A stretch of 64,000 nucleotides of DNA, from the NCBI RefSeq assembly GCF_000092125.1, contig NC_014212.1, positions 2,252,001-2,316,000 of the forward strand. The letters run 5' to 3'. Each line of letters opens with the position of its first letter. Positions within the stretch are counted from its first letter, which is position 1. Under the pieces are notes generated by a model, which ran no database searches, was not told where the DNA came from, and saw nothing but the letters and a program-made list of their open reading frames with translations. The position numbers and the translations under genes were made by a program. This DNA is from Allomeiothermus silvanus DSM 9946. Its GTDB lineage: Bacteria > Deinococcota > Deinococci > Deinococcales > Thermaceae. Below, piece after piece: positions 74 through 64,000 of the stretch.

Positions 74-170
74 ACCTGGGAAGGAGGGAGCGAAGTCTTC
101 CCCCGCGATGAGCCCTTGCACTCATGCGGAGCATCCCCCACCCGGCAAGGGCGGAGGGAAGATCATGGGC

Positions 171-199
171 CTTTGGCGTTCAGCATTCAGCAGCGCCTA
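171..199. repeat. Short degenerate heptamer repeat
   Basis: Sequence reads in 7-nt steps (TTTGGCG TTCAGCA TTCAGCA). It belongs to the same 7-nt periodic class seen at several other gaps in the window and abuts the stop codon of the lipoprotein gene. Confidence 0.5.
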
Positions 200-7417: not shown

Positions 7418-7480
7418 ACGCCAAACGCTCTGGGAGTCTTCGGGCGTTCGGCGTTTAGCCTTTGGCGTTTGGCTAGTTTC
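7418..7480. repeat. Heptamer-periodic repeat between gfh1 and lysS
   Basis: The segment reads GCGTTCG GCGTTTA GCCTTTG GCGTTTG in 7-nt steps; its left edge (GCCAAACGC) can pair with its right edge (GCGTTTGGC), so the gfh1 transcript could form a hairpin here. Confidence 0.5.
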
Positions 7481-9128: not shown

Positions 9129-10387
9129 GTACGGCGACACGCAGCGCTTTGCTGGTGGCTCTGGGCCTCCAGCTAGGGTTGGCCCAAGGGTTTTATGATC
9201 CCCTACAAAACCACCCCTCGCTCGTCCAAGCCCGCCTAGGGCTCGAGGCTGCCCAGGCCCAGCTGCGCGCCCAGGAAAGCCCGGTTATCCTTCAAGCGCA
9301 AGCCGCAAACACTTGGCTCAACTTCCCAGGCCCCATCCCCGATACCCAGGTGGTGAACGCCTCGGTGGGGGTGGCCTTCACCCCCTTCCCCTTCGGCGAC
9401 ACCGCCGACGCCATCACCCAGGCCCGCCTGGGGGTCGAGCAGGCCGCTTTGGGGCTGCGCCAGGCAAAGACCGCCCTCGAGGCCCAGGCCCTGGAGGCCG
9501 CTTACCGGGTGCGGTTGGCTCAGGTGGGGCTGGAGGTCGCCCAGAGCGGGGCCCGGTTGGCTCAAGCCAGCCTGGAGGCGGTGCGGCTGCGCGCCCAGCG
9601 TGAAGCCGCCAGTCCCGCCGAAGTGCGCCAGGCCGAAGCCCAACTCCGCCAGGCCCAGCTGCAAGTAGAAGACGCGGGGCGCACCCTCGAGCTAGCCCGG
9701 CGCAACCTCAGCGACCTGCTGGGAACGGCGAACCTAGAAATCCCGCCCACTCCCCCGCTTCCTCTACCTGCTACCCCCCCGAGCGTGCGCCAAGCCGAGC
9801 TGCAAGTAGCGCAAGCCCAGCTTGCCTACGCCCGCGCCGAGCGGAGCATCTGGCCGGTAGCCCAGGCCAGCTATACCTATAACACCTCGCCCCGCGACAG
9901 CTTCAGCTTGAGCCTCAACAGCCGCACCCTACAGCCCCAGCTCGGCTACAGCTACCAGAACCCTTCGCTAAGCTCAACCGGACAGCCCAGACCGGAAAGC
10001 CAGTTTCAGCTAGGGGTTTCGCTAAACCTAAGCCCCGCGGTCTTCGATGCGCTCGAGGCCGGACGCAAACAAGTCCAGGCTGCCCAGGCCGCGCTCGAGG
10101 CGGCCAAGCGCACCGCCGCGTTGCAAGAAGCTTCGCTACGCTCAGCCTGGCAAGGAGCGGAGGCCCAGGTAGGACTGGCGCAAGCCGCCCTTCAAGATGC
10201 CGAGCGCGCGCTGTCTGAAGCCCGCGAACGCGAACGGCTGGGGCTTACCAGCCCGCTGGCCACGCTCCAGGCCGAACTGGGGCTGGCCCAAGCCCGGCTC
10301 GCGCTCGAGCAGGCCAACCTAAACCGGCTCTCCCGCATCCTAGATTTGTACCGTTTTTACGCCGAGCCCCTTAGTGAGGTGAAGTGA
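9125..10387 (+). CDS. TolC-family outer-membrane efflux protein (with barrel strands)
   Basis: 420 aa starting at GTG 9125, coupled to marR. A signal peptide (LLVALGLQLGLAQG) is followed by two TolC/OEP repeats: long alpha-helical stretches rich in A, Q, E and L, each interrupted by a beta segment. The first strand region is about residues 70-95 (VVNASVGVAFTPFPFGD) and the second about 245-305 (ASYTYNTSPRDSFSLSL to QLGVSLNLSPAVFD). These give the outer-membrane barrel and periplasmic tunnel through which the RND pump exports. It overlaps the next gene by one base (TGATG). Confidence 0.88.
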   Translation: MSTATRSALLVALGLQLGLAQGFYDPLQNHPSLVQARLGLEAAQAQLRAQESPVILQAQAANTWLNFPGPIPDTQVVNASVGVAFTPFPFGDTADAITQARLGVEQAALGLRQAKTALEAQALEAAYRVRLAQVGLEVAQSGARLAQASLEAVRLRAQREAASPAEVRQAEAQLRQAQLQVEDAGRTLELARRNLSDLLGTANLEIPPTPPLPLPATPPSVRQAELQVAQAQLAYARAERSIWPVAQASYTYNTSPRDSFSLSLNSRTLQPQLGYSYQNPSLSSTGQPRPESQFQLGVSLNLSPAVFDALEAGRKQVQAAQAALEAAKRTAALQEASLRSAWQGAEAQVGLAQAALQDAERALSEARERERLGLTSPLATLQAELGLAQARLALEQANLNRLSRILDLYRFYAEPLSEVK

Positions 10388-10512
10388 TGCATGCCCAACG
10401 CCAACCACCAACTGCCGAATGCCACATGCTAGCGCCAAGTCGCGCCATGCGCTCCCTTATTCTGGCTTTCAGCTTTCCGCTGCTAGCTGCTGGCCTGGCG
10501 CAGCAGGCCCAG
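10387..10512. repeat. Heptamer-periodic DNA forming the 5' end of the second tolC-like gene
   Basis: The first 45 nt read ATGCCCA ACGCCAA CCACCAA CTGCCGA ATGCCAC, a 7-nt period with GCC in nearly every unit. A second tract at about 10468-10500 (GGCTTTC AGCTTTC CGCTGCT AGCTGCT) encodes the signal-peptide core. Confidence 0.5.
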
Positions 10513-11450: not shown

Positions 11451-12692
11451 ATGCAAAACGCCAAACCCACGACGCTAAGCGCCCGGCATGGGTTGGTGCT
11501 GCTGGCGGTGGCTGGCCTGCTCCTATCGGGCTGTAACAACCGCCGGGGAAACGTGGAAGCGACTACAGCCACCCCCACCCAAGCCGCGCCTCGGGTTACC
11601 AAAGTCCGGGCGGTAACCCTCAAGGAAGGGGTCTTGACCGTGAGCCGTACTGCCGGGGCTACGTTGGCCCCGCTACGGGAAAGCAATGTGGCCTCGAGCG
11701 CCAGCGGCAAGGTGCTGGCGGTGCTGGTCGAGGAGGGCAGCCGGGTCGGGGCGGGCCAAACGGTGCTGCGGCTCGATGACGCAACCGCCCGCACCGCGGT
11801 ACAAAACGCCGAACTGGCGCTGGAGCAAGCCAGGATCAACCTCGAGCGCACCTCGCGCTCCACCGAAGGCAGCCTGGCTCCCCTTCAGGCCGCCCTCCAG
11901 GCGGCACAAGCCAATCTGCAGGTGGCCCAACGGCGCTATACCGAGGGCCAGCAGCTTTTCCGGGTGGGGGCTATAGCCCAGGTGGAACTCACCAGCCTGG
12001 AGGCCGCGCTGGGCCAGGCCAAGTCCAACGCCGAAAACGCCCGCGAGGCGCTCGAGCGGGCTCAGCGGGCCAACCGTGAAGATCTGGCGTTGCTGCGGGT
12101 GCAGGTCCAACAGGCCGAAGCCCAACTGGCCCAGGCCCGGCGCGCCCTAGCCGACACCGAGGTCAAGGCTCCTTTTGCTGGGGTGGTAGCAGAAGTGTAC
12201 GTCAACCCTGGGGAGTTCGTAGCAGCGGGCTCGCGGGCTTTCCGACTGGCCGATGTCCGCCGGCTCGAGGCCAAATTTCGCATCCCTCCCTCGGAAGCGG
12301 CCAAGCTCGCCCCGGGAACCGGGCTGAACCTCGACTACGGCGGCCAAACTTACTTCGCCCGCCTCAGCCGCACCAGCCAGATCCCCGGTACTGACCGGCT
12401 AGTAGAAGCGGTGGCCACCCTTCAGGCCCCCCTTCCGCCCGGAGCCAGCGCCAGCGTGCGTTATACCCTCGAGATAGCTAAGGGGGTAATCGCGCCTAGC
12501 GGAGCTTTGCTACCGGGCGAACAACCTAGGGTCATGCTCGTGGAAAACGGTAAGGCCAAAGCTGTAAAGGTGGAGATCTTGGGCGATAACGGCAGCCAGC
12601 TAGCTCTACGGGGCGTCAGCGCGGGAAGCCAGGTGGTGTTTCCCGTCCCCGCCAGCCTGCGCAGCGGGGACGCGCTCGAGGTGATCCGGTGA
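11451..12692 (+). CDS. RND efflux periplasmic adaptor (HlyD/AcrA family), lipoprotein
   Basis: 413 aa from ATG 11451; AGGAGG lies eight bases upstream. A lipoprotein signal (VAGLLLSGC) anchors it. Lipoyl half-motif LRESNVASSASGKVLAVLVE, a long helical hairpin (about residues 115-225, rich in A, Q, L and E) and the second lipoyl half VKAPFAGVVAEVYVNPGEFV follow in order, then beta-barrel and membrane-proximal domains. It bridges the inner-membrane RND pump and a TolC channel. Gene order tolC-tolC-adaptor-RND and short spacings show one operon. The N-terminal codons continue the 7-nt repeat pattern. Confidence 0.93.
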   Translation: MQNAKPTTLSARHGLVLLAVAGLLLSGCNNRRGNVEATTATPTQAAPRVTKVRAVTLKEGVLTVSRTAGATLAPLRESNVASSASGKVLAVLVEEGSRVGAGQTVLRLDDATARTAVQNAELALEQARINLERTSRSTEGSLAPLQAALQAAQANLQVAQRRYTEGQQLFRVGAIAQVELTSLEAALGQAKSNAENAREALERAQRANREDLALLRVQVQQAEAQLAQARRALADTEVKAPFAGVVAEVYVNPGEFVAAGSRAFRLADVRRLEAKFRIPPSEAAKLAPGTGLNLDYGGQTYFARLSRTSQIPGTDRLVEAVATLQAPLPPGASASVRYTLEIAKGVIAPSGALLPGEQPRVMLVENGKAKAVKVEILGDNGSQLALRGVSAGSQVVFPVPASLRSGDALEVIR

Positions 12693-18837: not shown

Positions 18838-21120
18838 GTGCTGCCCCCGGAGATCTCGCCCTATGAAAGCTACGCCGACTGGCTCCGGAGCATCGAGGGC
18901 TACGCGGGCCAACTGCGGTTCGTGCGGACTTTGCCCGCCAAACCGCCCCGACAGAGCCTCTACCGGGGTGAGTTCGCGGGCATTCTGGAAACCCTCAACC
19001 TCTTCCCCTACGAGCATCAAGTGGAGGCTTTCGCGGACATCCAGTTCGGGCGAAACCTGGTCGCAGCGACCGCTACCGCTTCAGGAAAGAGCCTGATCTT
19101 CCAGGTCCCGGTGCTGAAGGCCGCGCTCGAGGGCCAAAGCGCCATCCTCCTCTACCCCACCAAGGCCCTGGCTCACGACCAGCTCGCACGGCTACGGCAG
19201 ATGGCGGTGAAGCTCGAGCTGGAGAGTACCATCTTCCCCTATGACGGCGACACGCCGGACAAGCAGCGGCGGCTGGCACGAGAAAAAGGCCGGGTCATCC
19301 TCACCAACCCCGATATGCTGCACTTCGGGTTGCTCCCACTGCACACCGAGTGGGCCGAGTTTTTGGGGAAGCTCAAGTATTTGGTGATCGACGAACTCCA
19401 CGCCTACCGAGGGGTCTTCGGCACCCACGTGGCGCTGATCCTGCGGCGGCTATTGCGCATCGCACGGCACTACGGCGCGAGCCCCCAGATCATCGCAGCT
19501 TCCGCGACCATCGCCAACCCCGCCGAGCACGGGGAAAACCTCACCGGGGAACGCTTTGCCCAGGTCTCGGCGGCGCTGGCCCGGGCCGAGCGGGAGTTCG
19601 CAGTTTGGGTACCCAAAACCCTCGACAAAAAGGGCCAGGTGCGGCGAAGCGCGAACTTGGAGGCTGCTTTGCTCGCCCGACACGCCGCAGAAGCGGGCCT
19701 ACGGGCTTTAGTCTTTGCCAACTCCCGCCGCACCGCCGAATTGGTGGCCCGCTATGCGGGAATCCCCGAGGTGCGCCCGTACCGGGCTGGATATACGGCA
19801 ACCGAGCGAAGGCGGCTTGAAGCCTCCCTCAAAGCGGGTGAGACCAAGGTGCTGGTGAGCACCAGCGCGCTCGAGCTGGGCGTGGATATCGGGGAGTTGG
19901 ACATGGTGGTGCTCTTGGGCTATCCCGGCTCGCTTTCGGCCTTCTGGCAACGCGCAGGGCGAGCCGGGCGGGGGAACCGGCGGGCCTTGGTGGTCTGGAT
20001 TCCCCGCGAAGACCCCCTCGACGAGTACTACCTCGAGCGTCCCGAACTGCTGCTGGGCGGTTCACCGGAATCCGCCGTGGCCGACCCAGACAACCCCGTG
20101 CTCTACCCGCTACACCTGCACTGCGCAGCCAGGGAACTCCCTATCGCGCCCACCGAGGCCATCTACCACCCGCTCTTGGCCACCGGGCTGGTACAAAAGG
20201 GCGAACGGCTCTATAGCCCCAAGCGAAGCCCCCACCGCGAACTCACCCTGCGCGGCATGGGCAACACCTTCACCCTCAAAGACGCCCAAGGCCGCGTCCT
20301 GGGCACCCTCGGCGAGCGTCAGGCCTACTGGGAGGCCCACCCCGGCGCGGTGTATCTGCACATGGGGGAGAACTACCTGGTGCGCAACCTGGATCCTGCA
20401 CAGCGCGAGATCGTGCTGCTGCCCGGTCTGGAGGACTACTACACCCAGCCCCGCGCCGAGACCGACGTCGAGGTGCTCGGCGGCGAGGAGTTGCTGCCGG
20501 GCGTGTGGGTGGGGCCGGTGATCCTGCGCGAGCGGGTCACGGGCTACGTCAAGAAGCGCTTCGTGACCGAGACCGTGCTCGAGGAGGTCATGCTGACGAT
20601 GCCCGAGCTCAGCTTCCAGACCGAGGCGGTGTGGTTTCACCCCCTGGCTGAGACCGCCGTCCACCCCTCCCCCCTCCCCAGCGTGCCCGACCGCATCACC
20701 GGGCGCTGGCCCGACGAGGCGGGGATGTCGGAGGCGCTGGTGCCCTCGGCCATCCACGCCCTCGAGCACACCATGATCGGCCTGCTGCCGCTGTTCGTGC
20801 TGGCTGAGCGCTCCGACGTGGGCGGGGTGAGCTACCCCTTCTATCCCCGCCCCCTGGCTTCGGGCGCAGGGCCCACCGTCTTCATCTACGACGGCTACCC
20901 CGGCGGGGTGGGCTACGCGCGGGCCGCGGCGCGGCAGTTCCCGGCCTGGATCAAGGCCACGCGGGACCTGCTGGAGCGCTGCCCCTGCGAGGGCGGCTGC
21001 CCGCGCTGCGTGCTCTCGCCCAAGTGCGGCAACGGCAACCAGTACCTCGACAAGGCCGCCGCCCTCTGGCTGACCGAGGCCCTGACCCCGCGCTACAACC
21101 GCCCCAAAAAGCCCAACTGA
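18838..21120 (+). CDS. DEAD/DEAH-box helicase of the MrfA/YprA type with C-terminal zinc motif
   Basis: 760 aa from GTG 18838. Superfamily 2 motifs appear in order: Q-like FPYEHQVEAF, motif I ATATASGKS, motif II VIDELHAY (DELH), motif III ASATIANP, and the second RecA domain with STSALELGVDIGELDMVV and QRAGRAGRGN. The C-terminal DUF1998-type domain ends with a cysteine cluster CPCEGGCPRCVLSPKCG. This architecture is that of MrfA, a 3'-5' DNA helicase that in Bacillus helps repair mitomycin lesions; its partner exonuclease gene is not here. The gene is followed at 40 nt by an antiporter gene. Confidence 0.9.
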   Translation: MLPPEISPYESYADWLRSIEGYAGQLRFVRTLPAKPPRQSLYRGEFAGILETLNLFPYEHQVEAFADIQFGRNLVAATATASGKSLIFQVPVLKAALEGQSAILLYPTKALAHDQLARLRQMAVKLELESTIFPYDGDTPDKQRRLAREKGRVILTNPDMLHFGLLPLHTEWAEFLGKLKYLVIDELHAYRGVFGTHVALILRRLLRIARHYGASPQIIAASATIANPAEHGENLTGERFAQVSAALARAEREFAVWVPKTLDKKGQVRRSANLEAALLARHAAEAGLRALVFANSRRTAELVARYAGIPEVRPYRAGYTATERRRLEASLKAGETKVLVSTSALELGVDIGELDMVVLLGYPGSLSAFWQRAGRAGRGNRRALVVWIPREDPLDEYYLERPELLLGGSPESAVADPDNPVLYPLHLHCAARELPIAPTEAIYHPLLATGLVQKGERLYSPKRSPHRELTLRGMGNTFTLKDAQGRVLGTLGERQAYWEAHPGAVYLHMGENYLVRNLDPAQREIVLLPGLEDYYTQPRAETDVEVLGGEELLPGVWVGPVILRERVTGYVKKRFVTETVLEEVMLTMPELSFQTEAVWFHPLAETAVHPSPLPSVPDRITGRWPDEAGMSEALVPSAIHALEHTMIGLLPLFVLAERSDVGGVSYPFYPRPLASGAGPTVFIYDGYPGGVGYARAAARQFPAWIKATRDLLERCPCEGGCPRCVLSPKCGNGNQYLDKAAALWLTEALTPRYNRPKKPN

Positions 21121-21155
21121 GCCATACATCCTGGTTCGCGCCACGCCGCGCCACC

Positions 21156-21161
21156 TATAAT
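21156..21161 (+). promoter_or_regulatory. -10 element (TATAAT) overlapping an upstream ATG
   Basis: A perfect TATAAT overlaps ATG 21160. A transcript from it would start near 21168, so the ATG cannot be used and GTG 21169 becomes a leaderless start. Confidence 0.5.
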
Positions 21162-21168
21162 GACTTTG

Positions 21169-22404
21169 GTGGTGGCCCCGGTTTCCATCGACCACATCCT
21201 CCTTGTCAGCGCTTTGCTGTTGCTGGCGAGCGTGCTGGTGAGCCGGATCTCCGACCGGCTGGGGGTTCCCGCGCTGGTGGTCTTCACGGGGCTGGGCATG
21301 CTGGCGGGCTCCGACGGGCCGGGCGGCATTTACTTCGACGACGCGCGCATCGCCCAGGGGCTGGGGGTGGTGGCGCTGGTGATCATCCTGTACTCCGGCG
21401 GGCTCGACACCGATTGGAGGAAGGTGCGCCCGGTGGTGTGGCAGGCGGTCTCGCTGGCGACCCTAGGGGTCGCGCTGACCGCGGCACTGGTTGGGCTCTT
21501 CGCCATCCTGGTGCTCGAGCTGCCGCCCCTGATTGGCTTTCTGTTAGGGGCTATCGTCTCGTCCACCGACGCCGCCGCGGTGTTCAGCGTGCTGCGGGCC
21601 GGGGGCGTGCGGCTGCAGGAACGATTGCAGAGCCTGCTCGAGCTCGAGTCGGGCAGCAACGACCCCATGGCGGTGCTGCTGACGGTGGGCTTGATCGAGC
21701 TGATCCTGCAGCGGGCCGGGGGCCTCGAGCTCGCCGGGCTGTTCGTGAAGCAACTGGGGCTGGGGGTGCTGCTGGGCTTCGCACTGGGGCACCTGATGAC
21801 CTGGGTGCTGCGCCGGCTGGCCCCGCAGAACAACGGCCTGTACTTCACGCTCAGCCTGGCGCTGGCGCTGCTGTGCTACAGCGTGGTGGCGGTGCTGGGC
21901 GGCAGCGGCTTCCTGGCGGTCTACCTGGCCGGGCTGGTGGTGGGGCAGCAGGAGCTGCGCAGCAAGGCCGACCTGCGCCTGTTCCACGAGGGGCTGGCCT
22001 GGCTGATGCAGATCGTGATGTTTCTGACGCTGGGCCTGCTGGTCTTCCCCTCGCAGCTTCCGCCGGTGCTGCTCGAGGGCACCCTGAGCGCGCTGTTCCT
22101 GATCCTGGTAGCCCGCCCCCTCAGCGTGCTGCTGAGCCTGTGGTGGTTCCGGCTGCCTTGGAACGAGCTCTTGCTGGTGGGCTGGGTGGGCCTGCGCGGC
22201 GCGGTGCCCATCGTGCTCGCCACCTTCCCCCTGCTGGCGGGGGTGGCCGGGGCGAACCAGTTGTTCAACCTGGTGTTCTTCATCGTGCTGTCGTCGGTGG
22301 CGCTACAGGGCCCCACCCTCAACGCGGTGGCCCGGTGGCTGGGGCTCGAGGAGCCCGCGACCCCCCAGCCCGACGAACCCGCCCGGCACCAGCCCACACC
22401 CTGA
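21169..22404 (+). CDS. CPA1-type cation/proton antiporter (NhaP2/CvrA-like)
   Basis: 411 aa from GTG 21169 (414 aa if from ATG 21160). About 12 membrane helices fill the protein. The ion-binding region carries SSTDAAAVFSVLRAGG (the conserved S-T-D) and LESGSNDPMAVLL (the N-D pair), and a conserved arginine motif LRGAVPIVLA lies in a late helix. These fit K+/H+ or Na+/H+ antiporters of the NhaP2/CvrA branch. The cytoplasmic TrkA-C-like tail of NhaP2 is absent; the protein ends shortly after the last helix. Codons here are even richer in G and C than in neighbouring genes. Confidence 0.88.
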   Translation: MVAPVSIDHILLVSALLLLASVLVSRISDRLGVPALVVFTGLGMLAGSDGPGGIYFDDARIAQGLGVVALVIILYSGGLDTDWRKVRPVVWQAVSLATLGVALTAALVGLFAILVLELPPLIGFLLGAIVSSTDAAAVFSVLRAGGVRLQERLQSLLELESGSNDPMAVLLTVGLIELILQRAGGLELAGLFVKQLGLGVLLGFALGHLMTWVLRRLAPQNNGLYFTLSLALALLCYSVVAVLGGSGFLAVYLAGLVVGQQELRSKADLRLFHEGLAWLMQIVMFLTLGLLVFPSQLPPVLLEGTLSALFLILVARPLSVLLSLWWFRLPWNELLLVGWVGLRGAVPIVLATFPLLAGVAGANQLFNLVFFIVLSSVALQGPTLNAVARWLGLEEPATPQPDEPARHQPTP

Positions 22405-22424
22405 GGGCGTACAATTCCCTCGAG

Positions 22425-23062
22425 ATGCCCCCTGGTCGTCCAGATCGCCTACGACCTCAGCGCCGACCCCCACGTGCGCGGCATCCTGCTCACCGGCTCG
22501 CACGCCCGGGGCGACGCCACGCAGGAGTCGGACCTCGACTTCTGGGTGCTGCTGGGGGGCGTGCTCGAGCGCCCCTTCCGCTCGGAGACGCTGGACGGGA
22601 GGTGGGTGGAGTACCACCACCGCAATCTCGTGCAAGCCCGCGAGCGCATGAGCAAAAACCCCGCGGAGCTCTACAGCCACCTCGACGGCAAAGCGCTCTA
22701 CGACCCCGACGGCAAGCTGGAGGAGCTGCGGGCCGAGGCCCAGGCCCTCTTCGCCGCCTACCGCCTGCCCGCCGAGGAGCGCCGCGCCCTGCGCTACTGG
22801 CTCGAGGGCAGCCGCCGCAAGCTCGAGGCCGCCCTGCGCAACCGCGACGAGCTCAGGGCCGCCTACCTCGCCAGCACCAACGCCTGGAAGATCCTCGAGG
22901 GCCCGTGGGCCGCCTGCCACAAGCCCATGCCCCCCCGGCGGCGCCGTCTGGGCCCACCTTCACGACCTCCAACTCGACGAAGCCCTCAAGGTCGTGCTGC
23001 GCGACCTCTTCACCGCCGGAGCGCTCGAGCGCGGCCAAGCCGCGTTGGCGCTCATCGAGTAG
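22425..23062 (+). pseudogene. Nucleotidyltransferase-domain protein with two homopolymer frameshifts
   Basis: The frame open from about 22430 contains the minimal nucleotidyltransferase signature: LLTGSHARGDATQESDLDFW (GSxxxGxxxxxSDxD). A long helical region follows (HEPN- or antitoxin-partner-like). The likely start ATG 22425, 10 nt after a TACAAT -10, is out of frame with it by one C in a run of five. A run of seven C at 22929-22935 then moves the coding frame again; after it, the second frame reads AHLHDLQLDEALKVVLRDLF and stops at TAG 23062. Removing one C from each run would give one protein of about 210 aa. Possible causes are decay, slippage or sequencing error. Confidence 0.6.
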
Positions 23063-23084
23063 GTACTGGATAGGCTGGAGACGA

Positions 23085-23340
23085 CCTGAGGGACGGGAAG
23101 CGGGAAGCCATAAGCTGCCAGCTATTAGCCCTCAGCTCGTGGTAGACCCACCCCGACCCTTCCCGCGCGCGGGGAGGGTTTATCCCCCCCAGCCCCCCTT
23201 GCTAAGGGGGGAATAAGGCGTCTTGCGTCTCGCGTTTTGCGTTTGGCGTACGATGTAGGACACAGGACGTACGACCCGCGCCTGGCGTTTAGCGTTCGGC
23301 TATCAGCTATCGACCATCGACCTCCTCCAGACCCTAAACT
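23085..23340. repeat. Gap filled with heptamer-periodic repeats and a C/G-rich hairpin
   Basis: From 23095 units ending in AGC recur every 7 nt (GGGAAGC, CATAAGC, TGCCAGC, TATTAGC, CCTCAGC). From 23222 to 23325 a second 7-nt tract moves from GGCGTTT AGCGTTC to GGCTATC AGCTATC GACCATC. Between them lie opposed C-rich and G-rich stretches (for example CCCCCTTGCTAAGGGGGG) able to form a hairpin. The far end carries TAAACT (23335-23340), seven bases before the mnmE start. Confidence 0.6.
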
Positions 23341-23347
23341 GTCACTC

Positions 23348-24658
23348 ATGGCCCTTCCATCGCTCAATGAACCTATCGCCGCCATCGCCACCCCGCCCGG
23401 CAAGGGGGCCGTCGGCATCGTGCGGCTTTCGGGGGTGGGGGCGCTCGAGGTCGCCGCTAAAGTCTGGCGGGGCAAAGACCCTAGGAAACTCGAGGGAGGG
23501 CGGTTTACCTACGGCACCATCGTCGACGCCCGTGGGGAGGTGCTAGACGAAGCGCTCATGCTGGTCTTCCGCGCCCCCCACTCCTATACCGGCCAAGACG
23601 CGGTGGAACTGCAAACCCACGGATCGCCCGCGGTGCTGCGGCAGGTACTCCAGGCCCTGCTCGAGGCCGGGGCCCGCCTTGCCCAGCCCGGCGAGTTCAC
23701 CCTGCGGGCTTACTTGAACGGGCGGATGGACTTAGCCCAGGCCGAGGCGGTGCTGGCTTTGGTCGAGTCGGAGTCGGATGCGGCCCGGCGACAGGCCTTA
23801 CGCGGGCTAGCGCGGAGCCTCTCCCAGCAGATCGAGGGAATGGCCGAGCGGCTTTACGACCTGCTGGCCCACATCCAAGCCTGGCTCGACTACCCCGAGG
23901 AGGGGGTGGAACCCGCGGAGATCCAGACTACCGTCTCGGAGGTGTTGGCCGAGGTCGAGCGCCTGCTGGCCACGGCCCCCGCCGGACGGATCGCGCACAA
24001 AGGAGCGCGCCTAGCACTGGTCGGGGCTCCCAATGCGGGAAAGTCGAGCTTGCTCAACGCCCTGCTGGGCTACGAGCGGGCCATCGTCACGCCGATCCCT
24101 GGAACCACACGGGATTACCTGGAAGCCCCGCTCGAGATCGCCGGGGTTCCTATCACCGCGGTGGATACCGCCGGGGTGCGCCAGACCGATGACCCCGTAG
24201 AGCGATCCGGGGTGGAGCGGGCTTTGAAGATTGCCCAGGAGGCTGACCTGGTGCTGTACCTGGTCGATGCCGCAGAGCCCCCACCCACCCCACCCGATCT
24301 TCCCTGGGAGCGAGCCCTAAAGGTAGCGACCAAGGCCGACCTCCCGCCTGCGTGGGAGGACGCGGAGTTCATCCGGGTCTCGAGCCAGACTGGCTTTGGC
24401 CTCGAGGCCCTGCGAAAAGCCATCCACGACAAGCTGATAGGACAAGCCTCCGAGGGCGAGATTTGGATCAGCAACGAGCGGCATACCCAAGCACTCTACG
24501 AAGCCCGGCAACACCTGCTCGAGGCCCTTACCGCCCCCCAAGACTTGGCCGGGTTATCGGTACAGGCTGCCTTGGACGCGCTCAACCAGATCCTGGGCAA
24601 GGATGTGAGCGAGGAGGTGATCGCGCGGGTATTCCGCAACTTCTGTGTAGGAAAGTGA
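23348..24658 (+). CDS. mnmE: tRNA modification GTPase MnmE
   Basis: 436 aa from ATG 23348, leaderless behind TAAACT; longer in-frame readings run through repeat DNA. With MnmG it installs the 5-aminomethyl group on U34 of certain tRNAs. The N-terminal domain opens with PIAAIATPPGKGAVGIVRLSG. A helical domain encloses the G domain, with P-loop GAPNAGKSSLLN, switch GTTRDY, DTAGVR and a TKADLP base motif. The C-terminus ends FCVGK, the conserved CxGK whose cysteine is catalytically essential. mnmG is not in the window. A potassium/proton antiporter gene follows 48 nt later. Confidence 0.97.
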   Translation: MALPSLNEPIAAIATPPGKGAVGIVRLSGVGALEVAAKVWRGKDPRKLEGGRFTYGTIVDARGEVLDEALMLVFRAPHSYTGQDAVELQTHGSPAVLRQVLQALLEAGARLAQPGEFTLRAYLNGRMDLAQAEAVLALVESESDAARRQALRGLARSLSQQIEGMAERLYDLLAHIQAWLDYPEEGVEPAEIQTTVSEVLAEVERLLATAPAGRIAHKGARLALVGAPNAGKSSLLNALLGYERAIVTPIPGTTRDYLEAPLEIAGVPITAVDTAGVRQTDDPVERSGVERALKIAQEADLVLYLVDAAEPPPTPPDLPWERALKVATKADLPPAWEDAEFIRVSSQTGFGLEALRKAIHDKLIGQASEGEIWISNERHTQALYEARQHLLEALTAPQDLAGLSVQAALDALNQILGKDVSEEVIARVFRNFCVGK

Positions 24659-36774: not shown

Positions 36775-36858
36775 GCTGGAAGCTAGAAGCTGAAAAAACT
36801 TTTGCGCCTGGCCGGTTGATCCTTCGGCGGCACTTTGCGTTTGGCGTTCGGCATCTGT
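36775..36858. repeat. Heptamer-periodic repeat between hflX and the HAD gene
   Basis: Units GGCTGGA AGCTAGA AGCTGAA are followed, after a gap, by TTTGCGT TTGGCGT TCGGCAT. It sits between two divergent leaderless promoters (TAGGAT at 36860-36865 serves the HAD gene). Confidence 0.5.
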
Positions 36859-41519: not shown

Positions 41520-41553
41520 GTTCGGCATCTTGCCTTTCGCTTAGCCATGTTAG
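41520..41553. repeat. Heptamer-periodic repeat upstream of bamA
   Basis: AAGTTCG GCATCTT GCCTTTC GCTTAGCC reads with 7-nt spacing. It lies about 50 nt before the bamA start and would be upstream of a leaderless transcript. Confidence 0.45.
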
Positions 41554-44120: not shown

Positions 44121-44466
44121 TGACCCCCACCCGCGGCGTATGTTCGCGGCGATAGCCGAGTAGCGAGTCCAGTCAAGGCAGTCGCAATGAATGCGCTTTT
44201 GCTAGCACCGAGCGGAACGCTACCCCTGAGTACCGGCACCAGCCGGGGGCCGATGGCCCTTCACTTGAGTACCGGCGCCAGCCGGGGGCCGATGGCCCTT
44301 CACTTGAGTACCGGCGCCAGCCGGGGGCCGATGGCCCTTCACTTGAGTACCGGCGCCAGCCGGGGGCCGATGGCCCTTCACTTGAGTACCGGCGCCAGCC
44401 GGGGGCCGATGGCCCTTCACTGCCCTACGGTCGGAGAAACAAACGTCTCGGGTGAGGGCCCCAAAA
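44121..44466 (+). repeat. Dispersed repeat element, copy A (contains 39-bp tandem repeats)
   Basis: Copy A shares with copies B (49425-49620) and C (55655-55775) a core that includes GTAGCGAGTCCAGTCAAGG and GCGCTTTTGCT. Its left end reads GACCCCCACCCGCGG and its right end CTCGGGTGAGGGCCCC, roughly inverted to each other. A five-unit tandem repeat sits inside it. It lies just after the bamA stop; no gene is evident. Confidence 0.7.
44226..44420 (+). repeat. Five tandem 39-bp repeats
   Basis: Units start at 44226, 44265, 44304, 44343 and 44382. The last four are identical; the first differs at two positions (CTGAG for TTGAG and GGCACC for GGCGCC). Each contains GCCGGGGGCCGATGGCCC. Because 39 is a multiple of three, an open frame repeats STGASRGPMALHL, but it has no clear start signal or end. 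Confidence 0.95.
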
Positions 44467-57371: not shown

Positions 57372-57392
57372 ATGGCGGGCGGCCTTTGGTGT

Positions 57393-57884
57393 TCAGTCAA
57401 ACAGCCCTGGTATCGCCTCGATGTGGATCCCGTCATCCTTCACCACGACATACGGGGCTTGAAAGGGAACCAGGTAGGTCCTCGAGAGCGCGCGAAGAGA
57501 AGTTCCAAAACGTTTGATGACCAGCAGGTCCTGGGCTGCGGCTTCCTGTACCTCAGCAACCTCGCCGAAGGGCTCTCCGTCCACAAAAACCGTCCTGCCG
57601 AGGAGTTGGTAGTAGTAGAAAGAACCTTCCTCCAGTTCAGGCAGATCGCCCTCATCAGCGTAGACCAAAAGCCCCACCAAGGCTTCCGCATCGGTGCGGT
57701 GCTTAACCCCGCTTAGGTGAAGAACCAGTTCCTCGCCCACCCAGTAGGCTTCCTCGATGGTCCGGTAGCCGAGGTCCTGGAGGTAGATGCGCGGCAAATC
57801 CTCCACCCAGGGCTCGCCTCGGAACTTGAACCCTCCCTTGAGGCCATAGGGAGACCCTATTCGTCCAACCTCGATTCTCCGCAT
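57393..57884 (-). CDS. rimM: 16S rRNA processing protein RimM
   Basis: 163 aa. RimM binds ribosomal protein S19 and aids 30S maturation. The first domain opens with VGRIGSPYGLKGGFKFRGEP, and the PRC-barrel part shows YYYQLLGRTVFVDGEPFGEV and GIHIEAIPGLFD at the end. It sits between khpA and trmD with short gaps, and the trmD start is 21 nt downstream. Confidence 0.95.
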   Translation of the reverse strand: MRRIEVGRIGSPYGLKGGFKFRGEPWVEDLPRIYLQDLGYRTIEEAYWVGEELVLHLSGVKHRTDAEALVGLLVYADEGDLPELEEGSFYYYQLLGRTVFVDGEPFGEVAEVQEAAAQDLLVIKRFGTSLRALSRTYLVPFQAPYVVVKDDGIHIEAIPGLFD

Positions 57885-58118: not shown

Positions 58119-58184
58119 GTTGATAGCTTATAGCAAATAGCTGATAGCCCACACGCTCGAGGCTATCAGCTATTGGGGAATCGG
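58119..58184. repeat. Heptamer-periodic repeat between rpsP and khpA
   Basis: TTGATAG CTTATAG CAAATAG CTGATAG reads in exact 7-nt units ending in TAG, followed by an inverted GGCTATCAGCTAT. The repeat lies inside the operon, so the RNA can form a hairpin between the rpsP and khpA messages. Confidence 0.6.
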
Positions 58185-63229: not shown

Positions 63230-64000
63230 GTCGCAAACCAAAAGCCCCGTAAGGGGATTGCAACGGTCGTGTACGAAGAATAGCGTCGGGCCCCCCAGGA
63301 AAAAGTCGCAAACCAAAAGCCCCGTAAGGGGATTGCAACCCGCCGGGCCCACTCCAAGGTGATCCGGGGGTATCCGTCGCAAACCAAAAGCCCCGTAAGG
63401 GGATTGCAACTTTCGAGCCAGGCAATACTTATTCATATAAAGATGCTCTATAGTCGCAAACCAAAAGCCCCGTAAGGGGATTGCAACACCACCCAGGGCG
63501 AGGAGTCTTCCGCCAGTCGCTCCAGGTCGCAAACCAAAAGCCCCGTAAGGGGATTGCAACAGTTATTATTCTGTTTCTGGTGGGGTAAGTAGCTTATCGT
63601 CGCAAACCAAAAGCCCCGTAAGGGGATTGCAACTAATGAACTCAATATTGAAACTATTTATCTAAATATTTCTCAAGTCGCAAACCAAAAGCCCCGTAAG
63701 GGGATTGCAACTGCAGCTATTGGCACATTTTCAATCTGTGCCTGAATAAAAGGTCGCAAACCAAAAGCCCCGTAAGGGGATTGCAACTCTTTTATATCTA
63801 GTTTTTTTAATTGTTCAGGAATTACATGTCGCAAACCAAAAGCCCCGTAAGGGGATTGCAACAAATAAACTTAGTACAAAGACAATTTTATTGTCTTATT
63901 TTTGTCGCAAACCAAAAGCCCCGTAAGGGGATTGCAACTCCTATAGCAAGTTTCATTTCTAGCAGGACGCGATCTCTATAGTCGCAAACCAAAAGCCCCG
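63230..64000 (+). CRISPR. CRISPR array: 11 repeats (last cut by window end), 10 spacers
   Basis: The 35-nt repeat starts GTCGCAAACCAAAA and ends GGGGATTGCAAC, with central CCCC-GTAA-GGGG able to form a short stem. Repeats start at 63230, 63305, 63376, 63453, 63526, 63599, 63677, 63753, 63828, 63904 and 63981; the visible ones are identical. Spacers are 40, 36, 42, 38, 38, 43, 41, 40, 41 and 42 nt. Spacers 1, 2 and 4 are GC-rich like the host; 6, 8 and 9 are strongly AT-rich. The type cannot be fixed without cas genes, which are absent here; the repeat resembles those of type I and III arrays with an ATTG-AAC tag. The array continues beyond the window. Confidence 0.99.

Follow-up and report, generated by a model that had tools for sequence, protein, structure and literature searches.

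The heptad-rich locus at 23094-23322 of the window, the 64,000-nucleotide stretch of Allomeiothermus silvanus DSM 9946 that was analysed here (C1:2252001-2316000), is one copy of a dispersed composite element and not a lone array. The element consists of two heptad arrays flanking a pair of G+C-rich hairpins. The explanation that we consider best, and hold to be probable, is that slippage maintains the heptad arrays and that these sit on a dispersed, recombining repeat. The genome totals 3,721,669 bases on three contigs; a chromosome of 3,249,394 bp and plasmids of 347,854 and 124,421 bp have been published for Meiothermus silvanus DSM 9946 (PMC3035272). Comparisons were made with G001 from the same genus as the window, G002 from the sister genus and G003, a further relative.

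Genes were called with a codon model and the intergenic DNA, 199 kb out of 1.66 Mb of this genome, was then tested at all periods from 2 to 40. At a score of 10 or more, period 7 was detected in 68 intergenic stretches as compared to 2.3 in dinucleotide shuffles, and at a score of 14 or more in 24 stretches as compared to 0 in dinucleotide-preserving shuffles. The harmonics of period 7 were enriched at 14, 21, 28 and 35, and among the other periods from 4 to 13 the counts ranged from 0 to 13 with none enriched like 7. Periods 30 and 39 were also in excess, probably from other repeat families. At a score of at least 12, the density of period-7 stretches was 183 per Mb in intergenic DNA and 6 per Mb inside genes. 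The period-7 signal is real and specific to 7. The earlier note had described different unit themes with one common period between genes, had proposed a genome-wide scan of this kind and had held that an equal 7-nt signal in random intergenic DNA would speak against it; its description was borne out and the shuffled DNA carried no such signal. A chance pattern picked by eye could be suspected from three of the nine sites listed in that note, which were no better than shuffled DNA, but the counts at both scores and the lack of a comparable excess at neighbouring periods refute chance for the genome as a whole and for the main locus, leaving it a negligible probability.

At the main locus the element runs from AGCnnnn heptads through a GTGG stretch, hairpin CCCTTCCCGCGCGCGGGGAGGG and hairpin CCCCCCTTGCTAAGGGGGG into drifting heptads, and on this right side the theme passes from GCGTYTN to GTACGAC, then to TATCRGC and finally to YATCGAC (Table 1). 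The earlier note had correctly recognised heptads here and had missed the composite dispersed element, the horizontal acquisition and the changes in 7-bp steps.

Table 1. Coordinates of the heptad arrays, core hairpins and shared segment in the window. Scores are for period 7.
Feature	Position	Strand	Remarks
Short heptad array GGCCTTT/GGCGTTC/AGCATTC	168-192	.	Score 10, local p 0.001
Heptad array, GGCGTTT theme, between greA-type and class II tRNA synthetase genes	7443-7473	.	Score 14, local p 0.001
Heptad array at start of outer-membrane efflux gene	10393-10429	.	Score 12, local p 0.003; differs in G001
Horizontally shared segment with the element	20974-23473	.	At least this extent upstream; per 100 bp, identity to G002 is 92-99% for the most part and 85-92% inside the element
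Left heptad array, AGCnnnn theme	23094-23136	+	Score 10; position and theme equal in the 370 and 685 kb copies and in G002 copies
Core hairpin 1, CCCTTCCCGCGCGCGGGGAGGG, G+C-rich	23157-23178	+	Read from sequence; conserved in own and G002 copies, while arrays vary
Core hairpin 2, CCCCCCTTGCTAAGGGGGG, G+C-rich	23193-23211	+	Conserved in own and G002 copies
Right heptad array: GCGTYTN, GTACGAC-type, then TATCRGC and YATCGAC units	23218-23322	+	Score 34, local p 0.001; theme order equal in G002 copies
Heptad array in the rpsP-khpA gap, with hairpin potential	58119-58184	-	Score 11, local p 0.001

Three other core-bearing copies were found in this genome, on the chromosome at about 370, 678 and 685 kb. 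In 400 kb of G002, blastn gave 40 merged places resembling the element and the core pattern found 18 copies, all of which lay between called genes in a coarse test. Of 50 family genomes, 7 contained the core, and in this search it was absent from the largest genus of the family (g4), which is probably Thermus. Genus g2 is probably Calidithermus, because the passage from the core end to the array seen in the element also occurs in Calidithermus chliarophilus. Replication-strand bias had been suspected in G002, as the matches listed were all on the plus strand, and was rejected when arrays were seen in both orientations in the fetched sequence. Carriage by phages or plasmids was also rejected: phages and viral contigs gave no match, and one plasmid record matched part of the core. 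Separately, the intergenic pieces of chromosome 497143-544760 contain a cluster of seven mutually similar intergenic sequences.

REP/BIME and MITE-like dispersed repeats are intergenic, occur in many copies, have a palindromic core and are a source of ectopic recombination. The composite element resembles them in being intergenic and multicopy, in its palindromic core and as a putative source of ectopic recombination, and differs from them in the heptad arrays, variable in length, on both its sides. No description of the composite element was found in the literature searched. In G002 the element is numerous and constant in its architecture, and core copies are present or absent between related genomes, which could also suggest a non-autonomous mobile element that is moved by a transposase and has the heptads as its variable ends. 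However, the aligned copies and one shorter site showed no recognisable target duplication or terminal inverted repeat. This sole shorter site, in G003, is not cleanly empty and retains a few heptads, with only GCGTTTG GCTAGCG ACCATCG GCC remaining at the locus. We regard movement by a transposase as possible, if somewhat unlikely.

The identity profile along the locus places the window copy of the dispersed, recombining repeat in DNA that was horizontally acquired, because DNA that is 96-98% identical to G002 adjoins mnmE, which is 76% identical. Upstream of mnmE lies a gene with 98% identity to its G002 counterpart, and beyond the shared segment, in mnmE, identity falls to about 60-84% per 100 bp. 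G001 has different DNA with no array upstream of mnmE. The element has multiplied in the sister genus and arrived at the window locus inside the acquired segment. Junctions were also found inside the element itself. In the 678 kb copy, the left part is 97% identical to G002:C6 and the right part 99% identical to G002:C3, the two meeting inside the element, which reads as a rearrangement in either lineage. At 370 kb, a stretch of 797 bp is 99% identical to G002:C3 and stops within the element, and the DNA beyond this junction is common to G001, G002:C7 and G003 at 83-88%. Two of the four core-bearing copies thus join DNA of different origin, a suggestive proportion that comes from few copies and has no control set. 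Because its copies are scattered homology, the element may recombine ectopically and join DNA of different origins, and homologous recombination would be the cause of the junctions.

The way in which the arrays change was evident from unit similarity and from near-identical loci. In 51 long G002 arrays the match was 0.74 at lag 7 and fell smoothly to 0.27 at lag 98, with off-phase lags at 0.22-0.26, near background. The same trend of decay with unit distance was seen in the window genome. A smooth decay is expected if units are copied from their neighbours by duplication and then mutated. The 685 kb locus is 99% identical to G002 over 1.9 kb, and its array differs by the absence of exactly one 7-bp unit, the only clean single-unit event seen. 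Between the window copy and its G002 counterpart there are gaps of 28 and 7 bp and some replaced units, and the flanking coding DNA is mostly 96-99% identical. These comparisons point to a pattern of gain and loss of whole units, for which replication slippage or unequal pairing would be the agent. Whole 7-bp units would be gained and lost locally in combination with point mutation, so that unit length is inherited and unit sequence drifts along the array. Counterpoints to slippage-maintained arrays are a 25-bp difference in the 678 kb copy, which is not a multiple of 7, a 6-bp change from G002 that falls in a G tract, at the edge of the element at 685 kb, and the constant length of the 7443-7473 array between species, as this array is equally long in G001 with two substitutions. 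Slippage alone does not account for the step of seven.

If the heptads were instead selected sites for a protein or RNA that binds in steps of 7 nt, selection would keep AGC, GCGT and ATC and their spacing. Certain bases within a theme do vary little, and cold-shock proteins have been suggested to be able to bind heptamer repeats (PMC4679880). A heptad-built hairpin is also kept in the gap between rpsP, the ribosomal protein S16 gene, and khpA, a KhpA-type KH protein gene, in six species of three genera. In the alignment of this hairpin 91.5% of cells pair and three pairs changed on both sides; the paired percentage was reached by 30 of 500 shuffles. However, unit similarity decays with distance with no return to one consensus, several themes coexist and the 18 G002 cores have no orientation bias relative to neighbouring genes. 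A general hairpin role was rejected as well, with inverted repeats no commoner in the arrays than in other intergenic DNA. We consider selected binding sites very unlikely, and a general regulatory role of the arrays is not supported. The rpsP-khpA gap of G001 has about 220 extra bases, among them a heptad array of eight units and pieces of other dispersed repeats that the window genome lacks there.

Heptad arrays extend well beyond the family. At least 117 genomic stretches from many phyla, cyanobacteria included, carry the pattern GCTATCAGCTATCRRCYATCRRC, of which we estimate that about 0.2 copies would occur by chance in 257 Gb; this agrees with the likeness to cyanobacterial heptanucleotide repeats proposed in the earlier note. 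With the matched arrays excluded, 506 kb of the GCTATCAGCTATCRRCYATCRRC contigs, from genomes preselected for one heptad array and so not an unbiased survey, contained 90 period-7 stretches at a score of at least 14 as compared to at most 13 at other periods from 4 to 13. These stretches were built of many different units. A related pattern was present in 11 of 111 genomes of the window's phylum, all from the window's own family; the reversed control pattern is close to an array theme and is not an independent control.

A bacterial excess of heptanucleotide repeats is already known, and 7 nt has been proposed as a polymerase-contact length (PMC4679880; PMC4692102). In a 2025 survey of perfect short repeats, Deinococcota were among the bacterial phyla with high repeat density (PMC12699852). 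Known heptads include GGGAATC in Xanthomonas and GGGGA(T/C)T in Nostoc (PMC4692102), and the TAACTGA repeats of Beggiatoaceae and cyanobacteria (PMC4679880). Like these heptanucleotide simple sequence repeats (PMC4692102, PMC4679880), the arrays described here repeat in tandem with a unit of exactly 7 nt and exceed chance, are mainly intergenic, have heterogeneous units and vary in length between relatives. Unlike them, they flank a palindromic core, with several themes following in a fixed order and sharing one phase on either side of it, and the whole composite is dispersed as one element. They also differ from the TAACTGA repeats (PMC4679880) in their units, the doubled units here being AAAACGC, ACTATCG, AAGACGC and others. 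It is conceivable, though we think it unlikely, that the replication or repair machinery of bacteria sets the length of seven. A 7-nt slippage or template-switch step common to many phyla would then write the arrays, conserving the period and not the units, and in Thermaceae the arrays would have become a dispersed element and a landing site for foreign DNA. The present data link the unexplained bacterial heptanucleotide excess to a genus pair that offers near-identical loci for reading array change, and there the heptad arrays also appear to mark joins of foreign or rearranged DNA. With such loci and joins available, the reason for the step of seven should therefore be testable in laboratory thermophiles.

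Each of the nine sites first listed in the window was tested against 1000 local dinucleotide shuffles. Five were clear, with p about 0.001-0.003 (168-192, 7443-7473, 10393-10429, 23094-23322 and 58123-58148), one was weak (36775-36791, p 0.012) and three were not above local shuffles (11451-11490, p 0.19; 41520-41553, p 0.72; 57375-57400, p 0.54). The genes on either side of the 7443-7473 array were assigned by Pfam. Repeats had also been claimed to supply the N-terminal codons of two efflux genes, a claim that was not clearly supported. For the HlyD-type gene, the site at its start (11451) is the first of the three that failed the shuffles. In the outer-membrane efflux gene, a second stretch at 10465-10494 (score 11) does lie within signal-peptide-like codons. 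The gene model favoured ATG 10447, which places the 10393-10429 array upstream of the start, and this array would be coding only with a longer start; the alternative in-frame ATG overlaps the upstream stop at 10387, and the longer frame is open here and in G001. The window contained no Rfam match at the gathering score and no tRNA. A 39-bp unit stands in five near-identical tandem copies at 44227-44421 (TRF, 99% match), and elsewhere the genome has a high-copy intergenic family in which a similar unit recurs. At 63524-63939 the spaced repeats GTCGCAAACCAAAAGCCCCGTAAGGGGATTGCAAC resemble the margin of a CRISPR array.
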